Source: Acidobacteriota bacterium
Lineage (GTDB): Bacteria > Acidobacteriota > UBA890 > WLXD01
Direction of reading: 5' to 3'
Length of the DNA stretch: 18,256 nucleotides
Assembly: GCA_022571615.1 (NCBI GenBank)
Contig: JACZXM010000010.1
Location: forward strand, 1 to 18,256
Every line of letters starts with the position of its first letter. The stretch's first letter is position 1. A program made the translations under genes and the position numbers. The notes below the pieces were generated by a model. The model saw only the letters and a list, made by a program, of their open reading frames with translations, did not search any database and was not told the DNA's origin. Of this stretch, positions 1,009 through 11,725 are shown piece after piece.

Positions 1009-1884
1009 CTAGCTGTGGCGACGCAGGTTCTCTGCCAGCAGGACCATGGCCTCTGCTCTGCCCGCCAACGACCCGGCCTTGCCCTGAAACATCGAATCCG
1101 AGCCCCCACCACGTCCTTGCAGCAGCTCCGCGATCGGGGGGCCGATTCGGCGCAGGTCGACCTCGGAATCGGGCCCGGCGACGAGCAGGAAGAAATCGCC
1201 CTTGCTGCCGCTGGCGGTCAGCAGCGCGACGCCGTTACCGGCGGTGCGGACGAACTGCCGGCCGATCTGCTGCAGGAAACCGGGGTCGGCGTCCTGGAAA
1301 TGGGCTTCAGCCACTGGCCCGCCGCCTGAGGACAGCTGGCGGGCAGCCTGTTCGGCGACCTGCCGCTGCAGCGCCTTGATCCGCCGTTCCGCCTGTTGGA
1401 GCCGATCGAGCTTGCCGGCCGTCATCGCCACCAGATCCTCGTTGCCAGTGCTCAGCAACTCGCGCAGCTGGGCGCCGCGCTGCTCGTGCTGCTCCAGCAG
1501 CCTGCGTACCCGGCCGCCGGCGATCCAGAACAACCGTGTGCCGCCGCGCATCGGCTCGGTGCCCAGCAGCTTGAGGGTCTCGATCTCGGCGGTGTGCTGC
1601 TGCATGTGGTCGTAGCGGCGATCCCAGTCCAGTTCCAACTCTGCCGGCCCCCGGCTGGCGGCGGACTCGATGAGGTGGCGGATCTCGCCGTCGACCCGCT
1701 GCACATCCACCACCGCCACTCCGGCGAGCCGGCCTCGATCTGCCGGTTGCCCTCCCCCCTCCGGATACAGGATGGTGTCGTCGAGCACGGCGTAATCCAG
1801 TTCTCCGTCGCGGTCGGCCTTCACGATCTCGACCGCGAGAGTGCGGCGATACGGCTCACGCTCGTAGGCTGGCGGCCGAGTCAT
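1009..1884 (-). CDS. Alanyl-tRNA editing (AlaX-like) protein with missing catalytic core
   Basis: 291 residues. The N-terminal third has the AlaRS-like YPEGGGQPADRG motif and then RRYDHMQQHT, which opens the zinc-binding editing motif HxxxH. In intact family members HT continues as GQHLL... and runs about 100 residues to a Cys-x-x-x-His motif just before T-A/G-E-I. Here HT is followed at once by AEIETLKLLGTEPMRGG, the segment that normally comes after that motif. The second His and the Cys/His pair are absent, and total length is about 100 short of the usual near 400. The C-terminal DHHA1-type domain, with RGGGSDSMFQGKAG, is intact. Known members hydrolyse Ser- or Gly-mischarged tRNA-Ala; this one probably cannot. 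The ATG at 1884 overlaps the nucleosidase stop (ATGA), implying translational coupling. A longer reading from 2097 is only overlap with the upstream gene. Confidence 0.8.
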   Translation of the reverse strand: MTRPPAYEREPYRRTLAVEIVKADRDGELDYAVLDDTILYPEGGGQPADRGRLAGVAVVDVQRVDGEIRHLIESAASRGPAELELDWDRRYDHMQQHTAEIETLKLLGTEPMRGGTRLFWIAGGRVRRLLEQHEQRGAQLRELLSTGNEDLVAMTAGKLDRLQQAERRIKALQRQVAEQAARQLSSGGGPVAEAHFQDADPGFLQQIGRQFVRTAGNGVALLTASGSKGDFFLLVAGPDSEVDLRRIGPPIAELLQGRGGGSDSMFQGKAGSLAGRAEAMVLLAENLRRHS

Positions 1885-2807
1885 CGCGCCACCATTCGAT
1901 GCAGCAGCGCAGCAACGACGCTGGCGGCATTGCGGGCGGCCATCGGCGCGTAGCTTTCCACCCGGTTCTCCTTCGGGTTGGCCCCGGCCATGTCCGAGAT
2001 CCCGCGCACGCCGATGTAAGGAATCCCGTTGGCGTACGCCACATGACCGACGGCTGCGGTCTCCATGTCGAAGCCGAGCGGCTTGAACGTCTGCCACACC
2101 CAGTCACGATACCGCGCGTCGTCAACGAAGGTCGGGCCGCTGACCCCGCTGCCACCGATGACGACTGCCGGCTGATGCTCCACGCATTGGCCACCGCTTG
2201 TGCAGCGCTCCAGCACCAACCCTTCCTCGGCCAGCGCAACCGCGTCGATCAGCGACTCGTCGACGCGGAACCAGAGCTTGAGCTCCTCGGCATCGGGCAC
2301 ATCGTTCGGGCGAGCCGCCCACACGCGCTGCGGAAACATCATCTCAAAGTGCCCGAGCGACTCGTTGCGCCAGCCGCGACGCCAGCCGGTCCGAGACGCA
2401 TCGGTGAACACGTGCTCCTGATACTGCGCCCACTGCTCGGGCACGATGACATCGCCGATCCGGATCCTGGGGCTGGCGCCGCCGGCGATGCCGCAGTACA
2501 CGATCGCCCGCACCCCCAGCGCGTCGATCGCCGCCTGCGCCGCCATCGTCGCGTTGACCATGCTGACCCCGCCGGCCACCAGCGCGACCTGTGCCCCGCC
2601 GATCCGACCCAGGTGATGGGTACGCCCGTTGATGATCTCGGTGCCGTCGACCTCGGTCAGCTCGAGCAGCGGGGCCAGCTCGAGCGGCATCGCAGTGATC
2701 ACCAGGATCGGAGGCAGCGCCGCGGTTGGATCCCACGGACCACCGCACCCGATGCCACCGATCAGCAGCACGAGCACGAACAGCCCTCGCAGTTGCTCCC
2801 TTCCCAC
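1881..2807 (-). CDS. Exported MTA/SAH nucleosidase-like protein (PNP/UDP phosphorylase superfamily)
   Basis: 308 residues. The PNP/UDP superfamily fold is shown by ILVITAMPLELAPLLE near residues 34-49 (E43 is in the position of the MTAN acid), YCGIAGG at 104-110, FDMETAAVGH at 246-255 (the ribose-binding Met-Glu) and RGISDMAG at 268-275 (D272 is the likely catalytic acid). These signatures fit a nucleosidase that cleaves the N-glycosidic bond of methylthioadenosine-like nucleosides. Unusually for the family, residues 1-21 form a hydrophobic export signal ending in GIGC-GG, suggesting a lipoprotein or secreted enzyme; the lipobox has Gly rather than Leu at -3, so anchoring is uncertain. The start is GTG at 2807, supported by AAGAAGG 7 bases upstream. 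It heads a two-gene operon with the editing-like gene. The exact substrate is not predictable. Confidence 0.85.
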   Translation of the reverse strand: MGREQLRGLFVLVLLIGGIGCGGPWDPTAALPPILVITAMPLELAPLLELTEVDGTEIINGRTHHLGRIGGAQVALVAGGVSMVNATMAAQAAIDALGVRAIVYCGIAGGASPRIRIGDVIVPEQWAQYQEHVFTDASRTGWRRGWRNESLGHFEMMFPQRVWAARPNDVPDAEELKLWFRVDESLIDAVALAEEGLVLERCTSGGQCVEHQPAVVIGGSGVSGPTFVDDARYRDWVWQTFKPLGFDMETAAVGHVAYANGIPYIGVRGISDMAGANPKENRVESYAPMAARNAASVVAALLHRMVAR

Positions 2808-2843: not shown

Positions 2844-3035
2844 GTTCAGCAGGGTGACCGAGACAACCGATCGTGCTGCGCGCCGTGCTCTTCGTCAAGG
2901 CAGTGCCCCTCCAGCCCCTACCGAGCTGTGGTGGTGGCCGGCGCAGCAGCAGAGATCGGGCGCCACGGACAGGGTACCGGGCCGTGGTAGGCTCGCTCGG
3001 GAGGGTTTCGACACATCCCACAAGGGAGAGGCACC

Positions 3036-4709
3036 ATCTCCAGACATCCGGTCACCGGTAACCTCCAGGGCCTGCAGTCTTCGCAAAAGCGCGCCCTGGA
3101 CCGCACGTTTCGCCGCCGGGTGCCCACGGACATGGTGGTCACGGGCGAACTGGCTCGACACCTGTGTGGGCTGTCGCGCGAGCTCGGACGCCAGGTGGGC
3201 GTGCTGCTGTCGCGCGACGGGGCGGTGCGCCATGTCATGGTCGGCGACGCGACACATTTGATGTTGCCCGACATCGGCCGATTGCGCGGCGGCGCAGGGC
3301 GCTTTCGTGGCTTGCGCCTGGTGCACACTCATTTGCGGGGCGAGTCTCTCACCGGCGACGACCTCAACGACCTGGCGTTGCTGCGATTGGACATGGTGGC
3401 CGTCGTGCAGTCGGGGGAGGATGGCCTCCCGGGCGCCGTCGAGGTCGCCTATCTCGACCCGTCAGCTCTGACCGAGGGAGTCGACGAGGCGCTGCCGGAG
3501 GACCCCTTCGTGCGGCTCCAAGCCGGCAACGTGCAGCAGCTCGAGCTGGATTTTTCGTCGACCATGGAGGCTCTCGAGGAGGAGTTCGCCCGTGTCGCCG
3601 ATCGTGCCCGCGGCCGCGGCGATGCCGAGCGCGCCCTGGTGATCGGGGTTCAACCCGACGATGATCGCTTCGCGGAGGTGCTCGAGCTGGTGCGATCGGC
3701 CGGCGTCACCATCGCCGGCACCATCCGGCAACGGCGGGCGAGAGTTCACCCCACGACAATCGTCGGACGCGGCAAGCTGCAAGAGCTGATCCTGGAGGCC
3801 ATGCGGCGCAACGCGGAGGTGGCCATCTTCGACATCAACCTCAAGCCGGCTCAGGCGCGCGCCTTCGAGGATGCCACCGGGATGAAGGCCATCGACCGCA
3901 CTCAGCTGATTCTCGATATCTTCGCCCAGCGAGCGCACAGCCGGGACGGCAGGCTCCAAGTCGAGCTGGCGCAGCTTCGTTACTCTCTCCCTCGCCTGAC
4001 CGACAAGGATGCCGGGTTATCGCGACTCACCGGCGGCATCGGCGGCCGCGGGCCCGGCGAGACCGTCATGGAGATCGGTCGGCGTCGCATTCGCGATCGG
4101 ATCCGGGCGCTGGAGAAACAGGTCGAGAGCCTGTCCAAGCAACGTGATCTCCGCCGCCGCCGCCGCAAACAGCAACAGATCCCGGGGCTGTCGATCATCG
4201 GCTACACCAACGCCGGCAAGAGCACCTTGCTGAACGCGCTCACCAAGAGTCGGATCGAAGCCGGAGAACGCCTGTTCATGACCCTCGATCCGACCAGCCG
4301 CCGGCTGCGCTTTCCAGACGGGGGCGAGGTGATCATCACCGATACCGTCGGGTTCATTTCCGACCTGCCGCCCGATCTGATGGCGGCGTTCCGCGCCACG
4401 CTCGAGGAACTGCGCGAGGCCGACTTGCTGCTCCACATCGTCGACGCCGCAGACCCGAATCTCGAGAACAAGATCATCGCCGTGAACCGGCTGCTGGAAG
4501 ATCTGGAGGTCATCGGCGTCCCAACCCTGATGGTGCTCAACAAGGCGGACCTGGTCGATCCCGAGCTGATCACGGCTCTCGTGGCCCGTTACCACGGTGT
4601 CGCGGTAAGCGCCACCCAACGCACCGGACTCGCGGATCTGATCAGGGTGGCTCAGGAATCGCTGCTGCCGGCCGAAGGACTCCCAACCGGGCAGCGTATT
4701 CACGGCTAG
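3036..4709 (+). CDS. hflX: HflX GTPase, apparently with an AUC start codon
   Basis: 557 residues if read from ATC at 3036; 529 from the first standard start, GTG at 3120. HflX binds and splits stalled or hibernating 70S ribosomes and hydrolyses GTP in the cytosol. This is the long form, with an extra N-terminal domain (VGDATHLMLPDIGR, LVHTHLRGE, DDLNDLALLRLD), then the HflX N-domain (VGRGKLQEL, FDINLKPAQARAFED), the glycine-rich linker LTGGIGGRGPGET and a coiled coil. The G domain carries G1 GYTNAGKST near 389, G3 DTVGF near 436 and G4 NKAD near 502. Residues before the GTG read GNLQGLQSSQKRALDRTFRRRVP, the usual N-terminus of long HflX proteins. AGGGAGAGG ends 4 bases before the ATC, whereas the GTG has no Shine-Dalgarno. 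TAG at 2988 closes the frame upstream. Confidence 0.95.
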   Translation: MSRHPVTGNLQGLQSSQKRALDRTFRRRVPTDMVVTGELARHLCGLSRELGRQVGVLLSRDGAVRHVMVGDATHLMLPDIGRLRGGAGRFRGLRLVHTHLRGESLTGDDLNDLALLRLDMVAVVQSGEDGLPGAVEVAYLDPSALTEGVDEALPEDPFVRLQAGNVQQLELDFSSTMEALEEEFARVADRARGRGDAERALVIGVQPDDDRFAEVLELVRSAGVTIAGTIRQRRARVHPTTIVGRGKLQELILEAMRRNAEVAIFDINLKPAQARAFEDATGMKAIDRTQLILDIFAQRAHSRDGRLQVELAQLRYSLPRLTDKDAGLSRLTGGIGGRGPGETVMEIGRRRIRDRIRALEKQVESLSKQRDLRRRRRKQQQIPGLSIIGYTNAGKSTLLNALTKSRIEAGERLFMTLDPTSRRLRFPDGGEVIITDTVGFISDLPPDLMAAFRATLEELREADLLLHIVDAADPNLENKIIAVNRLLEDLEVIGVPTLMVLNKADLVDPELITALVARYHGVAVSATQRTGLADLIRVAQESLLPAEGLPTGQRIHG

Positions 4710-6081: not shown

Positions 6082-6309
6082 ATGCGAACCACATTGGATA
6101 TCGATGAAGACATCCTCGCGGCGGCGAAGCAGCTGGCAGAGCAACGGCGTGTTTCGATGGGCAAGGTCGTGTCCGAGCTCGCTCGTCGCGGCCTCGCGCC
6201 GCCAAGCTCGGGTGACACGGTCCGTAGTGGTGTCCGCGTGCTCCCTGCGCGCCCAGGCGAGGGGCGGGCCGGGTTGGACGAGGTGAACCGGCTGCGCGAC
6301 GATGCCTGA
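6082..6309 (+). CDS. vapB: VapB-type antitoxin (ribbon-helix-helix)
   Basis: 75 residues. The N-terminus MRTTLDIDEDILAAAKQLAE and the following helix VSMGKVVSELARRGL form a CopG/Arc-like ribbon-helix-helix DNA-binding domain. The C-terminal tail (PARPGEGRAGLDEVNRLRD) resembles the toxin-binding part of VapB antitoxins. It should neutralise the VapC toxin encoded just downstream and repress the operon through the upstream palindrome. The frame is open to an ATG at 6058, but that ATG lies inside the operator and adds MFDAIVFV, so I choose 6082, where the beta-strand begins. No Shine-Dalgarno precedes it, consistent with a leaderless mRNA. Its stop overlaps the vapC start by 8 bases. Confidence 0.85.
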   Translation: MRTTLDIDEDILAAAKQLAEQRRVSMGKVVSELARRGLAPPSSGDTVRSGVRVLPARPGEGRAGLDEVNRLRDDA

Positions 6310-6790
6310 CGGCGTCCAGGGACGCGTGCCACTGCTCGATGTCAACGTCCTTGTAGCGCTGTTCGACGGCGCCCACCTGCATCACGAGGCTGCTCACACC
6401 TGGTTCGAACGTGTCAGCCAAACCGGATGGGCCAGCTGCGCGTTGACCGAGAACGGAACGCTCCGGGTGCTGACGAACCCGTCGTACACGGGCCGATTCA
6501 GCTCCTTGCACGACGTCGCGGACCGACTGCGGGAGCTCAGGACACACACCGCGGCGACATTCTGGGATGCATCTGTGTCGCTGCTCGAGGCAGGGCAATT
6601 CGACCTCACCCACATCGCCGGGCATCGTCAGCTGACCGACACCTACTTGCTCGGCCTCGCGGTGGCACACGGGGGATACCTCGCCACCTTTGATCGCAGG
6701 ATCTCGACCGCTGCCGTCCGTAGAGCGAAGCCCGAGCACCTCCTCCTCATCGGTGCAGCCGGCACCGCCATGTGGGAGGTAACGCCGTAG
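6302..6790 (+). CDS. vapC: VapC-type PIN-domain toxin ribonuclease
   Basis: 162 residues, a typical single PIN domain. The four acidic residues of the metal site are visible: D13 in PLLDVNVLVALFD, E50 in CALTENGTLRV, D113 in QLTDTYLLGLA and D131 in ATFDRRIS. Known VapC toxins are Mg-dependent RNases that cut tRNA or rRNA and stop translation when the antitoxin is degraded; the RNA target of this one cannot be read from the sequence. The ATG at 6302 overlaps the last 8 bases of vapB, so the two are translationally coupled. All four catalytic acids are present and the frame is intact, so the toxin is probably active. Confidence 0.9.
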   Translation: MPDGVQGRVPLLDVNVLVALFDGAHLHHEAAHTWFERVSQTGWASCALTENGTLRVLTNPSYTGRFSSLHDVADRLRELRTHTAATFWDASVSLLEAGQFDLTHIAGHRQLTDTYLLGLAVAHGGYLATFDRRISTAAVRRAKPEHLLLIGAAGTAMWEVTP

Positions 6791-10000: not shown

Positions 10001-11725
10001 TCAGCCGTCGCCCTGCGGTACCCAGTCGGTGTTCTCTGTCATGTCCGGGACGCCGGTGGCGAGGACGGTCGGCACGGTGCCGTCCAGCGCGTAGAGCACC
10101 CAGCTACCATCGGTGTGTCGCAGGAGCGCATCCGCCTTGCCGTCGCCACTGAAGTCAGCGATCGAAACGATCCCGAAGCCCAGGTCGGTGCTCATCTCCA
10201 GCGCCCCCTCGCTGACGATCTGCAGGCCGTCCAGCGAGTACAGGAACCAGGTACCGTCGGCGTTGCGCAGCAGCGCGTCGGCCTTGCCATCGCCGTTGAA
10301 GTCGGCGTGCGATTGGAGGGTGAAATCGGTGTCCTTAGACATGCCTGGGTCGCCCTTGCGCCGCACCTTCTTGCCGTCGAGCAGGTACAGGAACCAGCTT
10401 CCGTCGGCGTGCCGCACCAGCACGTCGGTGAAGCCGTCGCCGTCGAAGTCGGCCACGGCCTGGACCGTGAACCGGCGGTTACGGGTAATCTTCGGCTTGC
10501 GGAGAGTCGCTCGGCCGTCGCTGTCGAGTGTGTACAGCAGCCAGCTGCCGTTGGCGCGCCGCAGCAGCACGTCGGCGCGACCGTCGTTGTCGAAGTCGCT
10601 CGTGCCCACGGGAACGTCGTTGAGGTTGGCGCTCAGGTCGAGGAAGATCTCCGACTTCACCGTCTGGGAGTCGAGCAGGTATAACAGCCAGCGACCGTCG
10701 ACGGCGTTGCGCAGCAGCAGATCCGCCTTGCCATCGCCGTCGAAGTCGTCGGTCGAGATCACCTCGAAATCGGCGTCCGGCGTCAGGTCCACCTCACCCT
10801 CGGAGGTGATCTTCTTGCCGTCCAGCGTCGCCAGGATCCATCCGCCGGCACGTGTCTTGCTGGTGAGCGGTCCGCTCCTGGCTGCGGCGGTCTCTCGGAG
10901 CAGCACGTCCGGCTCCCCGTCGCCGTCGAAGTCGCCGCGCGAGACGGTCTCGAAGGCTGCATCCCGGGTGAGCTTCACGGAGCCCTTCTGCTCGATTTTC
11001 ACCCCGTCGTCACTCAAGCGCCTGTAGGAGAACCAGCGGCGGTTGCCCGCGCGACGCAAAAGCACAGGGGGCGTGGTCGTCGACGAGTCGGGGACCGGGA
11101 ACGTTGTGAAGATCAGGTTCTCCCGCAAGATCTGGTCAGGCGGCGTGTAGTTGATCAGCGGCAACTCGGCGAAGGCTCCGCCAGCGTTGAAGATCGGGAC
11201 TGCCGCGATGGCATCGATCACGGCCATTCCCCCACCCACCACCTGTCCGAACACCGTGAAGCCGCCATTGTCCTCATCGAGGCTGGAGGAGTTGTCCGCC
11301 AGGTTGATGAACCACTGGCTGATGGCGCTGTTGGGGTCTCCCGCCAGCTTTGCCATGGCGATGGTGCCGCGCACGTTGGAGCGGTTGAACTCGTTGACAA
11401 TCGGCGGATCCTCAGGTACCACGCTCGTGGTGCCAGGACCGTCGAAGACATATCCTCCACCCTGGATAATGAAGCCGGGAACGCTGCGGTGGATGAAGGA
11501 GTCGGCGTAGTCGCCGTCGCTGACATACTTGAGAAAGTTGGCCACGGTCACCGGGGCAACGTCCTCGAACAGCTCGATGTCGAAGCTGCCAAGCGGTGTA
11601 TCGACACGGACGATGTGAGCGTCCGCGGCCCGCGAGATCGGCGCGGCCGCCAGGCTGGTCATCACTAGCACTAGCAGCAGGGTCGAGACGGCACGTGCCG
11701 GCCTCGTCATGGTCCGCTGACTCAC
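10001..11725 (-). CDS. Secreted cyclophilin fused to FG-GAP/VCBS beta-propeller
   Basis: 574 residues. Residues 1-34 are a signal peptide (hydrophobic core STLLLVLVMTSLAAA). Residues 36 to about 215 are a cyclophilin-type peptidyl-prolyl isomerase: FIHRSVPGFIIQGGG at 78-91 holds the catalytic Arg (R80) and the conserved Gln, followed by GTIAMAK near 120 and SQWFINLADN near 136-145. Residues 221-574 are FG-GAP/VCBS repeats with six DxDGDG-type calcium loops starting at 265, 327, 377, 427, 475 and 524. It should act as an exported protein-folding enzyme carried on a propeller that could bind a ligand or surface. GTG at 11725 has a GAGAG sequence upstream; an ATG at 11710 is the alternative. It lies downstream of the glycerate kinase gene on the same strand with 145 bases between, and has its own candidate promoter. 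Confidence 0.9.
   Translation of the reverse strand: MSQRTMTRPARAVSTLLLVLVMTSLAAAPISRAADAHIVRVDTPLGSFDIELFEDVAPVTVANFLKYVSDGDYADSFIHRSVPGFIIQGGGYVFDGPGTTSVVPEDPPIVNEFNRSNVRGTIAMAKLAGDPNSAISQWFINLADNSSSLDEDNGGFTVFGQVVGGGMAVIDAIAAVPIFNAGGAFAELPLINYTPPDQILRENLIFTTFPVPDSSTTTPPVLLRRAGNRRWFSYRRLSDDGVKIEQKGSVKLTRDAAFETVSRGDFDGDGEPDVLLRETAAARSGPLTSKTRAGGWILATLDGKKITSEGEVDLTPDADFEVISTDDFDGDGKADLLLRNAVDGRWLLYLLDSQTVKSEIFLDLSANLNDVPVGTSDFDNDGRADVLLRRANGSWLLYTLDSDGRATLRKPKITRNRRFTVQAVADFDGDGFTDVLVRHADGSWFLYLLDGKKVRRKGDPGMSKDTDFTLQSHADFNGDGKADALLRNADGTWFLYSLDGLQIVSEGALEMSTDLGFGIVSIADFSGDGKADALLRHTDGSWVLYALDGTVPTVLATGVPDMTENTDWVPQGDG
10004..11065 (-). repeat. Seven-unit FG-GAP repeat array coding for a beta-propeller
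   Basis: Seven units of about 50 codons repeat within the cyclophilin gene, similar also at DNA level. Each unit has an LLR strand (residues 221, 274, 336, 386, 435, 484, 533) and a W-x-x-Y strand (231, 296, 346, 395, 444, 493, 542). The first unit lacks its DxDGDG head, and the protein ends in DWVPQGDG, the head of an eighth unit, so N- and C-terminal halves could complete one blade. Confidence 0.8.

Follow-up and report, generated by a model that had tools for sequence, protein, structure and literature searches.

A predicted non-AUG start codon of long-form hflX in Acidobacteriota and its possible link to IF3

Introduction

The closest described system was infC, which starts at AUU in E. 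coli and at AUC in Streptomyces (PMC5472188). IF3 is described as destabilizing non-AUG initiation complexes, and infC autoregulation as running through this ATT/ATC codon (PMC5472188). The hflX gene studied here resembled infC in being a ribosome-factor gene with an AUH start codon (AUH = AUU, AUC, or AUA) and a Shine-Dalgarno (SD) sequence, and infC of the same phylum was also of the AUH class (see below); however, gene and product were different, IF3 control of hflX is a proposal made here, and some hflX lineages used standard starts.

Three further cases were compared: (i) E. coli pcnB (AUU; cited in PMC1780047), which shared with hflX an AUU-type start outside infC, but its product is unrelated to ribosome splitting and its AUU is described as limiting expression (PMC1780047); (ii) Streptomyces sigR (PMC5472188), which likewise had a lineage-conserved non-canonical start, a strong SD, and a history of mis-annotation, but its codon is GTC rather than AUH, it was described for one genus, and its repression by IF3 was shown experimentally (PMC5472188); and (iii) an earlier published ribosome-acting GTPase with a predicted AUU start, which was presented for two example species in a passage with no conservation analysis. 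Very few non-canonical start codons are stated to have been characterized by experiment (PMC5472188), and the open-licence literature searched contained no paper on a non-AUG start of hflX.

HflX splits 70S ribosomes under stress, the E. coli protein being a known splitter, and IF3 is an anti-association factor that blocks subunit reassociation (PMC9067457).

The hflX locus in the window

The whole stretch of DNA analyzed (the window; 18,256 nucleotides) came from contig C359 of an acidobacterial draft genome that was 71% complete and consisted of 527 contigs. The features of the hflX locus were as follows.

1881 to 2807, strand opposite to hflX: upstream neighbour gene of hflX
2988 to 2990, plus strand: upstream TAG in the frame of hflX, read directly
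3023 to 3031, plus strand: SD AGGGAGAGG, 4 bases before the ATC; duplex with ACCUCCUUA, -8.4
3036 to 3038, plus strand: ATC, proposed hflX start codon (AUH in 78 of 104 long-HflX genomes), at which coding constraint begins
3039 to 3119, plus strand: codons 2 to 28, conserved N-terminus (SRHPVTGNLQGL...FRRR), lost if translation started at GTG 3120
3120 to 3122, plus strand: GTG, first standard start-type codon in the hflX frame, not taken as the start
3036 to 4709, plus strand: hflX, long form, 557 codons plus stop (4707 to 4709)

The frame from 3036 scored 414.8 bits against the HflX model TIGR03156 (cut-off 216.75) and was thus assigned to HflX; the Pfam domains GTP-bdg_N, GTP-bdg_M, and MMR_HSR1 all exceeded their cut-offs. 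GTP-bdg_N began only at residue 211, leaving about 200 residues of the long form in front of it.

TAG 2988, ATC 3036, and GTG 3120 lay in one frame. Direct reading of the window bore out two statements of the sequence-only reading, namely that no in-frame ATG, GTG, or TTG stands between TAG 2988 and GTG 3120 and that the SD ends 4 bases before the ATC. The locus thus displayed an AUH codon with no usable standard start and an SD at suitable spacing. Codons 2 to 28 encoded SRHPVTGNLQGLQSSQKRALDRTFRRR, which aligned from residue 1 with three same-family relatives at 73-75% identity.

Elsewhere the window contained a gene for a PIN-domain protein (6302 to 6790, plus strand) and a gene for one protein in which FG-GAP-like repeats follow a cyclophilin-type prolyl isomerase domain (10001 to 11725, minus strand).

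Start codons of hflX in relatives and across the phylum

The search of 60 relatives gave long-HflX matches that began at the residue of the ATC, and the three same-family relatives G001, G002, and G003 carried ATC, ATT, and ATC, respectively, at this position, none having ATG. This was the comparison that the sequence-only reading had suggested as a check, and it excluded the one-base ATG-to-ATC error or mutation named there as the main alternative. The accompanying statement that homologues have Met at this place held for more distant proteins (see below), but not for the nearest relatives, which had Ile codons.

A total of 396 genomes of the phylum, evenly drawn from a larger group, were searched with an alignment of 19 N-termini (A1), and long HflX was matched in 104 of them. 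The conserved GN motif, and not the SD, served as the reference for locating starts; the offset to this motif was set by hand for seven single rows and some families. The 104 start positions were distributed as 78 AUH, 21 standard, 3 ambiguous, 1 probable ACG, and 1 unreadable. The start of hflX thus appears to be AUU, AUC, or AUA, and not AUG, in most of the examined relatives with long HflX.

The loci read first numbered 102, two of which were dropped: G342, because of masked bases, and G266, which had an AUH codon no more than a standard one. The resulting 100 rows comprised 77 AUH rows in 21 family codes, 21 standard rows in six, and two ambiguous rows, in which an ATG stood two codons before the AUH and abutted the SD. 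Added later to these rows were G326 (ATT), G164 (ambiguous), and G266 (in-frame ACG behind an SD of -12.9).

Three kinds of loci had distinct start regions: (i) L116 of G266 displayed the strong SD AAAGGAGGTG with neither AUH nor a standard codon behind it, the in-frame ACG being a possible start; (ii) the arrangement ATG-CCT-AUH, with ATG abutting the SD, was found in hflX of L087, L096, and L282 and also in infC of L154; and (iii) standard-start hflX genes of family code f46 (e.g., L079, L088, and L113) shared the upstream string TAGCAGTTTC and had no SD before their ATG or GTG.

Evidence for initiation at AUH

Between the upstream in-frame stop and the AUH codon, 56 of the 77 AUH genes contained no standard codon at all, and the other 21 had at least one in-frame standard codon upstream of AUH; in seven genes the stop and the AUH were at most one codon apart, as in L120, where TAA directly preceded ATT. 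In 321 same-family pairs of AUH genes, the triplets immediately before AUH in its frame had a pN/pS of 0.99, compared to 0.31 for the codons between AUH and the first standard start (counted up to codon 28 at most) and 0.20 for codons 41 to 95; these pairs shared sequences and their synonymous sites were near saturation, but the break at AUH was still clear. The first downstream standard codon lay 3 to 68 codons after AUH, with no fixed place among the 77 genes.

A start codon not read as ordinary Ile should be released from the codon preference for Ile, giving an excess of non-ATC codons at starts. In the 38 genes with at least 75% of internal Ile codons being ATC, 12 starts were non-ATC, compared to 74 of 665 internal Ile codons (Fisher p 0.001).

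Four candidate explanations were rejected: (i) initiation at GTG 3120, given the constraint upstream of this GTG and the unfixed position of the first standard codon; (ii) an ATG-to-ATC error, given that relatives carried ATC, ATT, or ATA; (iii) a private feature of one genome, given the AUH codons in relatives; and (iv) two isoforms from dual starts, given that, judged by codon position, no downstream start was conserved.

From the sequence comparisons, hflX of the window is very likely initiated at a non-AUG codon, AUC 3036, and this predicted start cannot be put down to sequencing error or to a mutation private to this genome. The claim of the sequence-only reading that translation begins here and not at GTG 3120 was strongly supported by the recurrence of AUH plus SD across the phylum.

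SD strength and turnover of the third base

AUH starts had a median SD duplex energy of -10.0 (range -13.4 to -5.9), compared to -2.4 (range -6.4 to 2.2) for standard starts (Mann-Whitney p 3e-12, with no correction for kinship). A strong SD was absent at 20 of the 21 standard starts, while the AUG gene of L107 had an SD of -6.4. On the gene tree, which was built from 141 columns and contained many open forks and some long branches, seven changes between AUH and standard starts were needed, four of them forced by starred branches. The four supported independent AUH/standard pairs differed in SD in the same direction in nearly every random pairing; the remaining pairings had three pairs in this direction plus one tie, and never an opposite one. 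The sign test on these four contrasts gave p 0.125, the lowest value possible with four pairs.

The third base underwent 24 changes among U, C, and A on the gene tree (77 AUH rows), while AUG and AUH were exchanged only four times (93 rows). Since 34% of the fourfold third bases of AUH genes were G and 11% were A, AUG was rarer than free drift would give, and AUG seems, from this tree-based count, to be avoided at the hflX start.

infC, control genes, and a partial genome scan

The infC set consisted of 30 of the 57 infC-bearing genomes plus two added ones, and taking the best SD as the guide, a choice that may pick an internal Ile codon in single cases, 27 of 32 loci had AUH starts and the others TTG (three), GTG (one), and CTG (one). 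infC of the window's own genome had ATT, with no in-frame standard start after the stop and a modest SD (-5.4); infC of G001 had ATC.

As controls, 30 loci each of era and frr from 60 genomes searched were inspected: a standard start near the N-terminus was present in 29 of 30 era loci and 30 of 30 frr loci, one era and six frr rows that missed the motif being judged by eye from Met, and one era locus had none. A general laxity of start codons in these genomes was not supported by era and frr.

A partial scan compared about 0.8 Mb of G001 to pieces of G002, G003, and the window; it gave 204 reciprocal ORF pairs, of which 193 were tested and 32 flagged. Many of the flagged pairs were antisense or chance frames, and inspection by eye left infC and a DUF819 gene as the sole credible cases; hflX itself went unflagged, so the scan misses cases. 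This DUF819 gene lay directly before hflX (L035:1824-2990 in G001; G002:C301) and had no standard start at its conserved N-terminus, where ATC or CTG is possible.

Proposed control by IF3 and its alternatives

In the model that we slightly favor, initiator fMet-tRNA would read the AUC of hflX with the aid of the SD, and selection would keep the non-AUG codon because it makes initiation sensitive to IF3. With plentiful IF3, the AUH initiation complex would be rejected and HflX would stay low; with IF3 short relative to 30S subunits, initiation at AUH would rise, and both IF3 (whose own gene has AUH) and HflX would be made. HflX would then split idle or stalled 70S ribosomes, and IF3 would hold the subunits apart. 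The sequence-based part of this model is the codon class, the SD, the constraint from AUH on, the rarity of AUG, and the AUH class of infC; the use of fMet, the sensitivity to IF3, and the loop are inferred. A non-AUG start spread over 21 family-level groups of one phylum, with its third base shifting among U, C, and A, was taken to point strongly to the weak codon as the functional feature, and derepression of HflX when IF3 is limiting would be the simplest meaning of AUH at hflX.

The sharing of this codon class with infC suggests that infC and hflX may be controlled together. The translational autocontrol by HflX that the sequence-only reading had considered is accordingly retained in altered form, as cross-control by IF3, which fits better because infC here shares the codon class; nothing pointed to autocontrol by HflX.

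The main rival was a fixed brake, in which the weak codon merely sets a low HflX level and the IF3 level has no regulatory use. In E. coli, AUU is reported to limit the expression of a gene besides infC, the pcnB introduced above (PMC1780047), and AUG would likewise be rare if higher HflX levels did harm; on the other hand, a weak SD could give a low level as well, but AUH was paired with strong SDs instead, and the codon class was common to infC. A brake of this kind is considered unlikely.

Less probable still is a neutral relic, i.e., an ancestral change to AUH that a strong SD offset and that has been drifting ever since. Compensation of weak starts by stronger SDs is described as a general trend for GUG and UUG (PMC5622118), and regulation therefore does not follow from the SD pattern by itself; however, AUG is one base away and should have arisen more often under drift, yet AUG and AUH were exchanged 4 times, compared to 24 changes of the third base within AUH, which makes the relic improbable.

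Control of the AUC start by other means, either HflX itself or translational coupling to the upstream gene, was judged very improbable. In G001, the DUF819 stop codon overlapped the hflX SD, so coupling is possible there, but the upstream neighbour in the window (1881 to 2807) was on the other strand, and a strong -10 box lay 19-47 bases before AUH in 36 of 79 rows (77 AUH plus 2 ambiguous), which fits an own promoter and a short leader. The 60 bases searched in the window contained no good -10 box (best score 4.6).

Initiation at a standard codon, GTG 3120 or any other, is hardly credible, and so is an ATC that is an error for ATG: gene callers did choose downstream codons, the window's own database protein P0001 beginning at residue 33 and the G002 protein at residue 29, but protein-level constraint ran from codon 2 on, the first standard codon was not conserved in position, and 78 of 104 genomes belonged to the AUH class.

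Returning to IF3 control, a wider version is put forward tentatively, with slightly less confidence than the model for hflX itself. In this version, at least infC and hflX of Acidobacteriota would belong to a regulon that senses IF3: AUH codons would directly register when IF3 is scarce relative to 30S subunits, and both an anti-association factor and a splitting GTPase would rise. The free subunits would thereby govern their own supply with no dedicated regulator protein or leader RNA. Lineages with SD-less standard starts may keep sensitivity to IF3 by a leaderless route: in 3 of the 21 standard-start genomes, the distance from a -10 box to the start was only 6, 14, and 16 bases, a nearly leaderless arrangement, and leaderless translation is reported to be inhibited by more IF3, while reports conflict on its need for IF3 (PMC9031893). 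If true, IF3 and HflX, both acting on the pool of free ribosomal subunits, would be joined by one testable mechanism.

Database records and occurrence in other groups

NCBI protein P0028 was identical to the G007 frame when the ATT of the latter is read as Met, which means that such a start has been accepted in at least one record; other records in relatives began at residue 10, 13, or 29 (the last being that of G002). The HflX N-terminus is thus cut by gene callers in some genomes, which would spoil expression and structural work.

A single-sequence query matched four loci among genome contigs, three titled Acidobacteria or Acidobacteriota and one uncultured bacterium. The search of viral contigs gave no match. 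On plasmids, Fusobacterium animalis had a long hflX in which ATG follows a GGAGG SD; therefore, AUG plus SD occurs elsewhere. In a rough look at the starts of short-form HflX from other Acidobacteriota, 3 of 10 loci were without the motif.

Of the 120 proteins listed in a database search, 76 began six residues before the GN motif, as judged at the protein level only; the first residues of 64 rows were read and were nearly all Met, and the named sources included Haliangium, Kofleriaceae, Myxococcota, and Deltaproteobacteria. Three long HflX proteins, P0142, P0145, and P0122 (one from Thermodesulfobacteriota), had called starts upstream of ISRxxGN or ISKxxGN; known from the protein alone, they give a hint that AUH starts might also occur outside Acidobacteriota.
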